36,089 nucleotides of DNA from NCBI GenBank assembly GCA_017519305.1, contig JAFWSN010000010.1, positions 1 to 36,089 of the forward strand. The letters run 5' to 3'. The stretch's first letter is position 1. Each line of letters starts with the position of its first letter. This document shows, piece by piece, positions 10,031 to 14,169 of the stretch. The notes beneath the pieces were generated by a model. The model saw nothing but the letters and a program-made list of their open reading frames with translations, made no database searches and was not told where the DNA came from. The stretch comes from Candidatus Saccharimonadota bacterium. Lineage in GTDB: Bacteria > Patescibacteriota > Saccharimonadia > Saccharimonadales > Saccharimonadaceae. Both the position numbers and the translations under genes were made by a program.

Positions 10031-11464
10031 ATGAGCAAACTATTTAAACGTACTAAAATTTTGGCGACGATTGGACCGTCGACCAATACCAAAGAAAAAA
10101 TCGAAGAAGTTATCATGGCCGGCGTTAATGGCTGCCGTCTTAACTGTTCACATGGCTCCAACGAAGAGCGTGATCAACAAATTAAATGGATTCGCGAAGC
10201 GGCCGAGAAAAAAGGTCGTTCCGTGGCAATTTTGCAGGATTTGCAAGGTCCAAAAATCCGTCTTGGCATTTTGAAAGACAATCATTTAAACCTTTCGGCT
10301 GGCGACGAGCTCGTCCTCGACTATGCTATCGAAGAGCATGACGGTTCTTTAAATGTTCCAATCCAATACAACTTGGCCAAAAAAGTCCAAATTGGCGAGC
10401 CGATTTTCCTCTTTGACGGCCGCATCCGTACTCATGTAGTGGAGATTGTTTCTGACACCGCTATTAAAGTCGCAGTCGAAAACGACGGTTTCATCATGTC
10501 CAGGAAAGGCCTCAACCTTCCAGAAACCAACTTTGATGGCGATATTCTCACTGAAAAAGATTTCGCAGACATCGAATACGGTGCCAAATGCGATTACGAC
10601 TATGTTGCTCTATCTTTTGTCCAAACCGCACACGACATTGAAAACTTGCGCCAACTTCTTCTCGCGCATGGTTCAACTGCCAAAATCATCGCAAAAATCG
10701 AAACCAAACGCGCTATCGAAACCGACGAAGCCCTCGAAGCCATCGTTAAGGCTGCCGATGGTATCATGATCGCTCGTGGCGATATGGCCGTCGAAGCTGG
10801 TGCTGAAGTTGTGCCAATTATCCAGCGCAAACTTATCGCTATGTGCCGTGCTTATTCTAAGATTTGTATTGTAGCAACTCAAATGATGAGCTCCATGGTA
10901 GATAGCCCAGAGCCAACTCGTGCTGAAGTTTCCGACGTCGCAAACGCTGTAATCCAAGGCGCCGACGCCGTAATGCTTTCGGACGAAACTGCCAACGGTG
11001 AATATCCACTCGAAACCGTCAAGGCAATGAAGAGGGTAATTCTTTATACTCAAAACCACTCACGCATTACTACGATTAATCACGAGCCAGTAGGCAAATA
11101 TCATAGCTATGATGCAATTTCTGACGCTGCTGCCCGTCTCGCTGAAAACATTAATGCAGATGTCATTATCTGCCAAACCGCCTCTGGTGCTACGCCAATT
11201 TCAATCGCTGCTCAGCGTCCAAACGTGCCAATCATCACGGTTACTAGCGACCATCGCGTAGCTAACCAAATGGCATTAATCTACGCCAACTCCGCCTTTG
11301 TTCGTCCGTATTCCGAAAAATACGGTTACGATCTCGCTAAAGAACTCAAAGATTCTGGTTACCTTCAGCTTGGTGAAGGCAAAAAAGATCTAGCCGCCGT
11401 CATCGTATCTGGTGGCAAAGACAAAATTGGTGGGACCGACACAATTCAAGTACGCTACATCTAA
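10031..11464 (+). CDS. pyk: Pyruvate kinase
   Basis: 477-aa enzyme converting phosphoenolpyruvate and ADP to pyruvate and ATP, the last step of glycolysis. The N-terminal TKILATIGPSTNTKEKIEEVI and NGCRLNCSHG, the metal/substrate segment IIAKIETKRAIE, GIMIARGDMAVEAG, and the signature VATQMMSSMVDSPEPTRAEVSDVANAV are all in place, followed by MLSDETANGEYPLE. A C-terminal allosteric-type domain (about 350-477) is present, including ADVIICQTASGATPISIAAQRP. Length is normal. It is the first gene of a pair with pgk, starting 10 nt upstream of it, so both ATP-generating steps of lower glycolysis are co-expressed. Confidence 0.96.
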   Translation: MSKLFKRTKILATIGPSTNTKEKIEEVIMAGVNGCRLNCSHGSNEERDQQIKWIREAAEKKGRSVAILQDLQGPKIRLGILKDNHLNLSAGDELVLDYAIEEHDGSLNVPIQYNLAKKVQIGEPIFLFDGRIRTHVVEIVSDTAIKVAVENDGFIMSRKGLNLPETNFDGDILTEKDFADIEYGAKCDYDYVALSFVQTAHDIENLRQLLLAHGSTAKIIAKIETKRAIETDEALEAIVKAADGIMIARGDMAVEAGAEVVPIIQRKLIAMCRAYSKICIVATQMMSSMVDSPEPTRAEVSDVANAVIQGADAVMLSDETANGEYPLETVKAMKRVILYTQNHSRITTINHEPVGKYHSYDAISDAAARLAENINADVIICQTASGATPISIAAQRPNVPIITVTSDHRVANQMALIYANSAFVRPYSEKYGYDLAKELKDSGYLQLGEGKKDLAAVIVSGGKDKIGGTDTIQVRYI

Positions 11465-11474
11465 AGGAGGTTAC

Positions 11475-12521
11475 ATGCGTCTTCAAACCATCAAAGACAT
11501 CGACGTAAAAAACAAAGTTGTCCTTATGCGTGCGGACTACAATGTCCCGCTAGACGAGGAACAAAAAATCACCAGCGATTTGCGCATTGTCACAAGTTTG
11601 CCAACGCTGCAATATTTACTCGATAATGGCGCCAAGAAAATTGTAATCATTTCACATCTTGGTCGCCCAGAAGGGGAAGACGAAAAACTCTCGCTTCGTC
11701 CGGTCGCCGAGCGTCTCGGCCAACTTTTGAAGGAGAAAGTTGGCTTCGCACCGCTCTTGAAGGGACCTTTAGTAAATCAAGAACGTGTGGTTTTGCTCGA
11801 AAACCTTCGCTTTAATGCTGGTGAGGAACAAAATTCAGAAGAATTTATCAAAGCTATCATCGATGAGGTCAACCCAGATTTTTACGTGCAAGATGGCTTT
11901 GCCGTCATTCATCGCGCGCACGCTTCAACTGATGCGGTCGCTAAATTCTTACCCGTCTACGCCGGTCTTTTAATCGAAAACGAAGTCGAAAAGTTATCTA
12001 AGGTCACCGAAGATCCAGAACATCCATTCGTCGTAATCATTGGTGGTTCCAAAGTCGAAGACAAACAACCGCTTATCGACAAGTTTCTTACTTCGGCCGA
12101 CAAGATTATCGTTGGCGGTAAAATTGCTGCTGATGGTTACGAAAGCACTAATGGAAAAATCTATGTCGCCGAAGATTTCGATGAAAATCTCGCTGGCGAA
12201 AAACTAGATATTGGCCCGCTTTCTACGGTTAAAATTGCTGAAATCTTAAAAGACGCTAAAACTGTAGTTTGGAATGGTCTACTTGATAAAGCCGAAGATC
12301 CAGCTTATGCCACTTCTTCTACTGTAGTTGCCGAAATCCTAGGCGAAACCGAGGGAATCAATACTGTAATTTGTGGTGGTGACACTACTGGTTTTGTAAT
12401 GGAAATGCTCGAAGAGCACGCAGGCCTCAATTATTCGTTAATTTCTACTGGCGGTGGCGCAGCCCTCGAGTTCCTCCTGGGCCAAGATTTACCGGGCCTA
12501 AATGCTATCAAAAAGCAATAA
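11475..12521 (+). CDS. pgk: Phosphoglycerate kinase (compact, divergent C-domain)
   Basis: 348-aa enzyme transferring phosphate from 1,3-bisphosphoglycerate to ADP. N-domain motifs are intact: RADYNVPL, SHLGRPEG, LLENLRFNAGEE, and HRAHAST for substrate phosphates. The C-domain keeps VVIIGGSKVEDK, DIGP, VVWNG, GGDTTG and STGGGAALEFLLG. It is about 40-60 aa shorter than typical PGKs: the segment between the IIVGG strand and DIGP is cut down, and the usual WNGPMGVFE reads WNGLLDKAE. The start at 11475 follows a strong AAAGGAGGT (11464-11472); an in-frame ATG at 11412 lies inside pyk. It is translated from the pyk transcript and followed by an independent murA promoter. Confidence 0.93.
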   Translation: MRLQTIKDIDVKNKVVLMRADYNVPLDEEQKITSDLRIVTSLPTLQYLLDNGAKKIVIISHLGRPEGEDEKLSLRPVAERLGQLLKEKVGFAPLLKGPLVNQERVVLLENLRFNAGEEQNSEEFIKAIIDEVNPDFYVQDGFAVIHRAHASTDAVAKFLPVYAGLLIENEVEKLSKVTEDPEHPFVVIIGGSKVEDKQPLIDKFLTSADKIIVGGKIAADGYESTNGKIYVAEDFDENLAGEKLDIGPLSTVKIAEILKDAKTVVWNGLLDKAEDPAYATSSTVVAEILGETEGINTVICGGDTTGFVMEMLEEHAGLNYSLISTGGGAALEFLLGQDLPGLNAIKKQ

Positions 12522-12559
12522 AAATTGTACTAAAATTCATTTACATTTTATGCGCCCCA

Positions 12560-12568
12560 TGATATAAT
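12560..12568 (+). promoter_or_regulatory. Extended -10 promoter of the HTH-murA gene (leaderless)
   Basis: TGA-TATAAT, hexamer 12563-12568, 7 nt before the ATG at 12576. There is no Shine-Dalgarno sequence. Confidence 0.72.
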
Positions 12569-12575
12569 TTTCCCT

Positions 12576-14126
12576 ATGAAAAAAGCTAGGAACTATCAGG
12601 AAGTTATTGGCGAAACCATCGAACAAATGCGCCTCCAAAAAGGCTGGACGCAAGGCGATCTGGCTGAGGCTGTCGGTTCTTCGCAATCCGCCATTCACCG
12701 CATCGAAAAAGGCGGTCAGAATGTTTCTCTCGAAATGATCAAAAAGCTCTCGAACGCTCTTGGCACCCAAATTCTCTCTATTAATGACTCAGCATCTCAG
12801 GGTTTCCGTATTCGTGGTGGCAAAGAATTGTCCGGCGAGATTACAATTAATACATCCAAAAACGCTGCCGTTGGCTTGCTTTGTGCCGCACTTCTTAACC
12901 GCGGTCGCACCGTAATTCATCGCATCGCTCGTATTGAAGAAGTCTATCGCATTATTGAAGTTTTGGAATCAATCGGCATGAAATGTAACTGGCGTAACCG
13001 TCGCCGCGACCTAGAAATTATATCACCGCGCGAATTGAAACTTGACGAAATGGACGTCGAGGCGGCTCGCCGTACTCGTTCGATCATCATGTTTCTTGGG
13101 CCATTAATGCACCGCTACAAACACTTTAGCATCCCATATGCTGGTGGTTGTTCGCTTGGCGTACGTACCGTTGAGCCTCATCTTCAGGCTCTAGAGTCTT
13201 TCGGTCTCAAAGTTGATGCCACTAAAAACAGTGGCTTCTACGACGTCTCGATTGACCAGAAAAAACTCAAAGGCAACGAAGACAAATACATCGTGCTCAC
13301 CGAACGTGGTGATACTGTCACCGAAAACGTCTTGATGGCTGCCGCGCTTTATCCAGGTAAAACTACTATCGTCGGTGCTTCATCTAACTACATGGTGCAA
13401 GATATTTGTTTCTTCCTCGAAAAACTTGGCGTTAAAATCTCCGGTATTGGTACTACGACCCTTGTGATTCGTGGCTGCCGTCGTATCGACACCGATGTTG
13501 AGTACTACCCATCCGAAGATCCAATCGAGGCGATGTCATTTATTGCCGCTGCGCTCGTTACTCATTCAGAAATTACTGTGCTTCGTGCACCAATTGAATT
13601 CTTGGAAATCGAACTTGAGATTTTGAAGACTATGCACGCCAAAATTGAGCGTTCACCAGAGTATCTTGCTGCCAATGGCCGCACCCGTCTAGTAGATTTG
13701 TATATCAAAAAGGCCGACCTGGTTGCACCAATTGATAAGATTCATCCAATGCCATTCCCAGGCCTCAACATCGACAACCTTCCATTCTTTTCGGTGATTG
13801 CCGCCGTGGCCGAAGGTCGTACGTTGATTCACGACTGGGTCTTTGAAAACCGCGCCGTCTACACGACTGAGCTTTCAAATTTGAACGCTAAGGTCGAATT
13901 GCTTGATGCTCACCGCGTATTCGTAGAAGGTCCAACCAACTGGCGTTCGGCTGAATTGGTCGCTCCGCAGGCTCTCCGCCCATCTGTGGTGGTTCTAATT
14001 GGCATGCTTGCGGCTCCTGGCACTTCGATTTTGCGTAACGTCTACTCAATCCAGCGTGGATATCAAGACTTCCCAGACCGTTTGCGCCACCTTGGTGCGG
14101 ATATCTCGCCGCTCACCGGTATTTAA
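12576..14126 (+). CDS. murA: UDP-GlcNAc enolpyruvyl transferase (MurA type) fused to an N-terminal XRE helix-turn-helix
   Basis: 516-aa fusion. Residues about 8-66 are a complete XRE/Cro-type HTH (IGETIEQMRLQKGWTQGDLAE, then SSQSAIHRIEKGGQNVSLEMI). From about 75 on it is an EPSP/MurA transferase, which adds enolpyruvate from PEP to UDP-GlcNAc in the first committed step of peptidoglycan synthesis. Catalytic positions are kept: Lys95-Asn96 in TSKNAAVGLLCAALL, Cys192 in AGGCSLGVR, Arg197, and an Asp in FPGLNIDNLPFF. Fosfomycin targets this Cys. Plain MurA is about 420 aa, so the HTH adds about 75 aa. No stop or frameshift separates the two parts, and the leaderless promoter points to the HTH start. 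It may be a DNA-binding, self-regulating enzyme; that is inference. Confidence 0.92.
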   Translation: MKKARNYQEVIGETIEQMRLQKGWTQGDLAEAVGSSQSAIHRIEKGGQNVSLEMIKKLSNALGTQILSINDSASQGFRIRGGKELSGEITINTSKNAAVGLLCAALLNRGRTVIHRIARIEEVYRIIEVLESIGMKCNWRNRRRDLEIISPRELKLDEMDVEAARRTRSIIMFLGPLMHRYKHFSIPYAGGCSLGVRTVEPHLQALESFGLKVDATKNSGFYDVSIDQKKLKGNEDKYIVLTERGDTVTENVLMAAALYPGKTTIVGASSNYMVQDICFFLEKLGVKISGIGTTTLVIRGCRRIDTDVEYYPSEDPIEAMSFIAAALVTHSEITVLRAPIEFLEIELEILKTMHAKIERSPEYLAANGRTRLVDLYIKKADLVAPIDKIHPMPFPGLNIDNLPFFSVIAAVAEGRTLIHDWVFENRAVYTTELSNLNAKVELLDAHRVFVEGPTNWRSAELVAPQALRPSVVVLIGMLAAPGTSILRNVYSIQRGYQDFPDRLRHLGADISPLTGI

Positions 14127-14129
14127 AAG

Positions 14130-14169
14130 AATCAAAAAATCCGCCTCAGCTAAAGGCGGATTTTTGATT
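14130..14169. terminator. Bidirectional terminator between murA and the ABC exporter genes
   Basis: Long near-symmetric stem: AATCAAAAAATCCGCC (14130-14145), a 9-nt loop, then GGCGGATTTTTGATT (14155-14169). Tracts on both sides serve the convergent units. Confidence 0.9.

Follow-up and report, generated by a model that had tools for sequence, protein, structure and literature searches.

Control of cell-wall synthesis at the level of MurA is usually viewed as a matter of enzyme inhibition and proteolysis. Among enzymes that also act on DNA, BirA resembles the protein described here in being an essential enzyme whose N-terminal helix-turn-helix (HTH) sits on an inverted-repeat operator and which controls synthesis in its own pathway; it differs in having a winged helix, in repressing the bio operon rather than its own gene and in having a known corepressor, whereas our protein carries an XRE-type HTH and its apparent target is its own gene. 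PutA and NadR are likewise metabolic enzymes fused to a DNA-binding domain, and the HTH of NadR is also of the Cro/C1 type, but they are other enzymes in other pathways and their control by ligands is established. The canonical MurA of E. coli (TIGR01072) shares the fold and the catalytic residues of our protein, including the equivalent of Cys115, but is only 25-30% identical to it and has no HTH. Finally, Streptomyces MurA2 (SCO5998, sven5810/vnz_28735) is a second MurA that is present besides the canonical one. In the open literature available to our search, which left most subscription papers outside, we found no report of an HTH on MurA or of MurA autoregulation, and both are likely, although not certain, to be new.

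We analysed a stretch of 36,089 nucleotides from a Candidatus Saccharimonadota genome (the window), in which the initial annotation had described an XRE-type HTH joined in one frame to a MurA with all of its catalytic residues, including the Cys. The open reading frame and the Pfam and NCBIfam matches confirmed this description (Table 1): 516 codons run in a single open frame from the ATG at 12576 to the stop at 14126. Pfam HTH_3 matched residues 15-66 with an E value of 2.3e-15 (56.8 bits against a gathering score of 23) and EPSP_synthase matched residues 80-503. The NCBIfam MurA subfamily NF006873 was passed on residues 76-511 (324.7 bits, cut-off 297), whereas the cut-off of the equivalog TIGR01072 was missed (299.1 against 392.7 bits); the fusion is therefore a divergent MurA branch, filed as MurA-type at the subfamily level. 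Alignment to solved MurAs placed E. coli K22, N23, R91, C115 and R120 at K95, N96, R168, C192 and R197 of the fusion, and D305, R331, R371 and R397 at D400, R426, R468 and R494, and none of the nine positions varies in either family alignment. The same holds for the HTH residues S36, Q37, R42, E44, G46, Q48 and N49, and the recognition helix is conserved. In the AlphaFold model (mean pLDDT 88.5) the XRE helices span residues 7-21, 26-33, 37-44 and 52-62, and the MurA part matches the fold of MurA structures, with PDB entries of the MurA UDP-MurNAc/PEP complex among the matches.

Table 1. Features of the XRE-MurA locus, with positions in the window
Feature	Position	Strand	Basis
-35 element TTTACA	12540..12545	+	sequence
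Operator O1 TATGCGCCCCATGATATA, 18-bp inverted repeat over spacer and -10 box	12549..12566	+	cross-locus comparison; pattern search in the window's genome (G000)
-10 element TATAAT (extended: TGATATAAT), 7 nt before ATG	12563..12568	+	sequence; conserved in genus
XRE-MurA fusion gene, 516 aa	12576..14126	+	ORF, domain matches, orthologues
XRE/HTH_3 DNA-binding domain, residues 15-66	12618..12773	+	Pfam, predicted helices, invariant residues
Recognition helix, residues 37-44 (QSAIHRIE)	within HTH	+	model helices
Flexible linker, residues 68-73	12777..12794	+	model pLDDT <50
MurA (UDP-GlcNAc enolpyruvyl transferase) domain, residues 76-511	12801..14108	+	profiles, alignment, fold match
O2, operator-like site AATTCGCGCGGTGATATA in codons 148-154 (IISPREL)	13019..13036	-	position and codon conservation
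Catalytic Cys192 of MurA domain	codon 13149-13151	+	
Terminator-like hairpin AAAAATCCGCCTCAGCTAAAGGCGGATTTTT	14133..14168	+	sequence

The full-length fusion was present in 57 of 60 relatives and was split across two contigs in one further relative, which makes it neither a chance event nor an annotation artefact, the latter as the initial annotation had argued from the leaderless promoter that starts translation at the HTH; the orthologues have thus kept the HTH. When the domain pair was searched across the CPR, it was found throughout the order Saccharimonadales and in some other Patescibacteria. When the phylum was sampled evenly, the Saccharimonadales, families f44 and f59 and single members of f98 and f37 had the fusion as their MurA; the same MurA branch occurs without the HTH in f70, f79, f88, f94, f48 and the remaining members of f37 and f98, and the other Patescibacteria have an ordinary MurA. 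One f37 genome (G067, locus L066) retains a degenerate HTH, with TSLLTEIELG instead of TSQSAINRIE. The XRE-MurA fusion is ancient. The window's assembly has only two PF00275 matches, both of them XRE-MurA: the second, 67% identical and with its own operator, lies on an 8.4-kb contig (G000:C1, L072:6822-8363, L001) whose G+C content is 46% as against 45%. As this copy clusters with a sister genus, it is a paralogue or else a contaminant from binning. In two other genomes of the window's genus the search shows an in-frame TAG in the matched murA stretch (L088 and L085; G017:C2 and G002:C13), for which an assembly error, a late stop or frame variation are the options.

A scan of named genomes found relatives in Candidatus Saccharibacteria and also in Streptomyces and Nonomuraea isolates, including one complete chromosome; no XRE-MurA was found in the viral contigs searched. 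About 60 of the 196 Actinomycetia genomes sampled (about 30%) carry the fusion, at 57-64% identity. All eight Streptomyces and Nonomuraea genomes examined have a canonical MurA alongside it, while in about 11 of the 196 Actinomycetia genomes (L374-L384; e.g. G439, G449, G459) it is the only MurA-like match, which suggests that there it has replaced the canonical enzyme. In several Streptomyces the fused locus has aconitase nearby, as SCO5998 (MurA2) has in S. coelicolor (PMC12161575); Streptomyces MurA2 is thus almost certainly the actinomycete branch of the XRE-MurA family.

In the tree, the copies from actinomycetes group together as one clade (SH-aLRT 99), which is nested among those of Saccharimonadales. 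The alternative, in which the Saccharimonadales copies form a clade without them, was rejected (delta lnL 118, AU p 1e-15) on a tree rooted among other Patescibacteria, with the canonical MurAs left out. With rooting on canonical MurAs, a topology in which one branch sets all Patescibacteria apart was not rejected (AU p 0.36); the canonical proteins are too distant to serve as an outgroup, and the nesting was therefore tested without them. The simplest interpretation is that Saccharimonadales were the donor and actinomycetes the recipient of the gene, and we consider this direction probable. As Saccharibacteria are known to live as epibionts on actinobacteria, the two may have been in contact.

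Upstream of the fusion gene lies a TTTACA-17-TATAAT promoter (12540-12568), from which transcription would start at the ATG or immediately beside it. The initial annotation had assumed a leaderless promoter from which translation starts at the HTH; the position of the promoter fits and makes a leaderless start credible, while the start itself is read from the sequence only. The gene is followed by a terminator-like hairpin and is therefore probably monocistronic; a convergent FtsX gene comes next. Directly upstream are genes for pyruvate kinase (10031-11464) and phosphoglycerate kinase (11412-12521), both near PEP metabolism, and positions 1-479 of the window hold the 3' end of a 23S rRNA gene followed by 5S rRNA.

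Comparison of upstream regions revealed an inverted repeat shared by the fused murA genes. It takes the form TATATCATnnATGATATA in most Saccharibacteria, TATTCRTnnnRTGATATA (degenerate, TATKCRYnnnRTGATATA) in the window's genus and TATCTCAnnnnTGAGATA in actinomycetes. Outside the window's genus, TATAYCATnnATGRTATA was found upstream of 29 of 34 fused murA genes as compared to 3 of 117 other upstream regions from the same loci (order- and phylum-level loci, up to 3 mismatches, within 150 nt). Within the genus, TATKCRYnnnRTGATATA occurred exactly in 31/34 fused murA upstream regions and in 1/49 others. In 29 further genera of the family, which were held out when the consensus was written, nearly all loci had the operator, usually 8-12 nt before the start codon. 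All 65 actinomycete fused loci had TATMTCAnnnnTGAKATA, usually 10-12 nt before the start; here the geometry is unchanged and the half-site TGAGATA replaces TGATATA. In three sets of loci taken together, the operator was present at 154 of 162 fused loci (up to 3 mismatches), with a consensus that was refined by eye on part of the scored loci, the family and actinomycete sets including loci not used for this. At two loci (L024, L031) operators lie in other orientations, and three loci with an intact HTH had none at the set thresholds. The significance of the palindrome was uninformative on single sequences because these regions are AT-rich, and fixed-position and cross-genome tests were used instead. 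Part of the conservation is that of the promoter itself, since the right half of the genus operator is an extended -10 (TGnTATAAT); this does not account for the left arm, the actinomycete form or the orientations at L024 and L031. Covariation of the recognition helix with the operator was considered and rejected, as L001 and L206 keep N yet have the genus-type arm; the N-to-H change in the genus coincides only uncleanly with the change of the operator arm, and we make no claim of covariation.

The operator is very nearly unique in the genomes that carry it. In seven of eight Streptomyces and Nonomuraea genomes (6.7-9.7 Mb), ATCTCAnnnnTGAGAT was present in exactly one copy, each just upstream of the fused murA, while the reversed control gave 0 matches; the eighth genome has an operator with one mismatch (L306). 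Across 79 Saccharimonadales genomes we found five exact sites for TATATCATnnATGATATA, four of which are murA promoters. A near-single copy per genome, located at murA, is the pattern of a dedicated autoregulator. The fifth site is a perfect TATATCATATATGATATA palindrome just downstream of the end of a 23S rRNA gene (L177:244-261, G037:C23). We rejected a wider regulon: exact matches to the genus operator outside murA were nearly all coding coincidences, made by Y-S-x-x-D-I codons in MurE-like, MurD-like and other genes, so that the raw tally of 60/60 genomes is no evidence for one. In the window's genome, tandem murA-type operators precede a FemAB-family gene (L142:8508-8560, G000:C9), and its orthologue in G005 (L186) has one such operator 9 nt before the start. 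The sites are missing in most orthologues, which excludes FemAB as a regular second target; it is possibly an occasional one in cell-wall synthesis. The same genome also has an operator-like site inside a TTGACT-17-TATAAT promoter (L094:1501-1620, G000:C10:426656), from which a short RNA of about 90-100 nt would be made; it ends in a terminator, looks non-coding and matches no Rfam family.

The operator also follows the HTH. Among 88 loci, it was present in 69 of the 72 whose recognition helix is intact and in none of the 16 in which the HTH is absent or degenerate (L066 being one of the latter). These losses represent only two or three phylogenetically independent events, all of them concordant, with which a sign test cannot reach significance; the association of HTH and operator, although complete, is thus strong by the number of loci but modest by the number of independent losses. 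The proposal that MurA acts as a DNA-binding regulator at its own promoter (12530-12576) is now strongly supported at the sequence level, by the invariant recognition residues, the ancient HTH and O1, as is the idea that XRE-MurA would control transcription directly.

In the window's genus the gene itself contains a second site, O2, at +443 to +460 of murA on the opposite strand, which differs from the genus operator by one mismatch and lies at the same place in most members. O2 ranked first in synonymous-codon conservation among 380 windows of the gene: nearly all 34 genomes of the genus retain the codons ATT ATA TCA CCR, and all 34 retain ATA, which elsewhere encodes only a minority of isoleucines. 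In three sister genera this place holds versions with two or three mismatches, and most of the family is without O2. The constraint on synonymous codons makes it very likely that O2 is under selection at the DNA level. Lying 470 bp inside the gene, it probably makes repression tighter, either through a DNA loop or by acting as a roadblock.

Taken together, XRE-MurA is very probably bifunctional, a working enolpyruvyl transferase that would also repress its own gene, as a dedicated regulator with essentially one target. We infer operator binding, dimerisation and repression rather than activation. The XRE domain, presumably as a dimer, would bind the 18-bp inverted repeat, and as this covers the spacer and the -10 box, binding there should block the access of RNA polymerase. 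At low MurA levels, the operator would be free and murA transcribed; as MurA accumulates, the gene would be shut off by its own product, and in the window's genus O2 would add to this repression. Negative autoregulation of this kind needs no ligand and accounts for all of the data.

A ligand may nevertheless take part. The open or closed state of MurA could switch DNA binding, as in a trigger enzyme, so that transcription would follow precursor supply, with UDP-GlcNAc and PEP, UDP-MurNAc or fosfomycin as candidates. Such gating would extend autorepression rather than compete with it, and everything that supports autoregulation applies to it as well. MurA closes on UDP-GlcNAc and forms stable UDP-MurNAc/PEP complexes, UDP-MurNAc being a tightly bound product-side inhibitor, and BirA and PutA are precedents for ligand-gated enzyme-regulators. 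The full catalytic site is preserved in every member, which makes gating by substrate or by UDP-MurNAc attractive; however, the linker (residues 68-73) is predicted to be disordered, with no sign of rigid coupling, and the model shows no route from the ligand state to the HTH. We consider gating quite possible, with doubt slightly the stronger.

The other explanations fare much worse. XRE proteins can activate, and the sequence by itself gives no direction, but an operator over the -10 box and the spacer is in the classical position for repression, and activation of the promoter by MurA is improbable. Still less probable, and in our opinion very unlikely, is that the palindrome is the site of another transcription factor, with the HTH of MurA serving for dimerisation or protein contacts. 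Other regulators do use this region in Streptomyces, where murA2 is described as a direct BldM-WhiI target (PMC4125116), as having a SigB-dependent promoter (PMC8346170) and as a predicted DmdR1 target (PMC12161575); overexpression of murA2 did not reproduce the whiI phenotype (PMC11005364). However, the BldM-WhiI site is non-palindromic and the DmdR1 site is an iron box, and a separate regulator with one target would have to track the fused murA across two phyla and vanish whenever the HTH does. That the motif is merely the extended -10 promoter of a leaderless gene has the least in its favour and is highly improbable. TGATATAAT does have the form of an extended -10, and the site is spaced from the ATG as expected, but the left arm is missing at other promoters of the same loci, the actinomycete -10 (TAnnnT) lies at and beyond the right edge of a palindrome that is still kept, the motif is absent from murA genes without the HTH, and a copy is retained inside coding sequence.

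Autorepression by XRE-MurA, extended to the history of the gene, leads to a wider reading that we offer tentatively and on balance doubt: MurA, which catalyses the first committed step of the peptidoglycan pathway, would sense its own substrate or inhibitor state and signal it to its own promoter, through a two-operator loop in the window's genus, and the gene with its operator would have passed from Saccharibacteria to actinomycetes and become the developmentally controlled MurA2 of Streptomyces.

The enzyme targeted by fosfomycin thus seems to act as the transcription factor of its own gene, through a defined operator open to testing in Streptomyces. If this is true, MurA joins the short list of enzyme-repressors, and the locus provides a concrete circuit for regulation in the almost unstudied Saccharibacteria. 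It would also help to explain why Streptomyces have two MurAs, and it would be a documented case of a self-regulating gene passing between Saccharibacteria and actinomycetes, a group to which known Saccharibacteria hosts belong.
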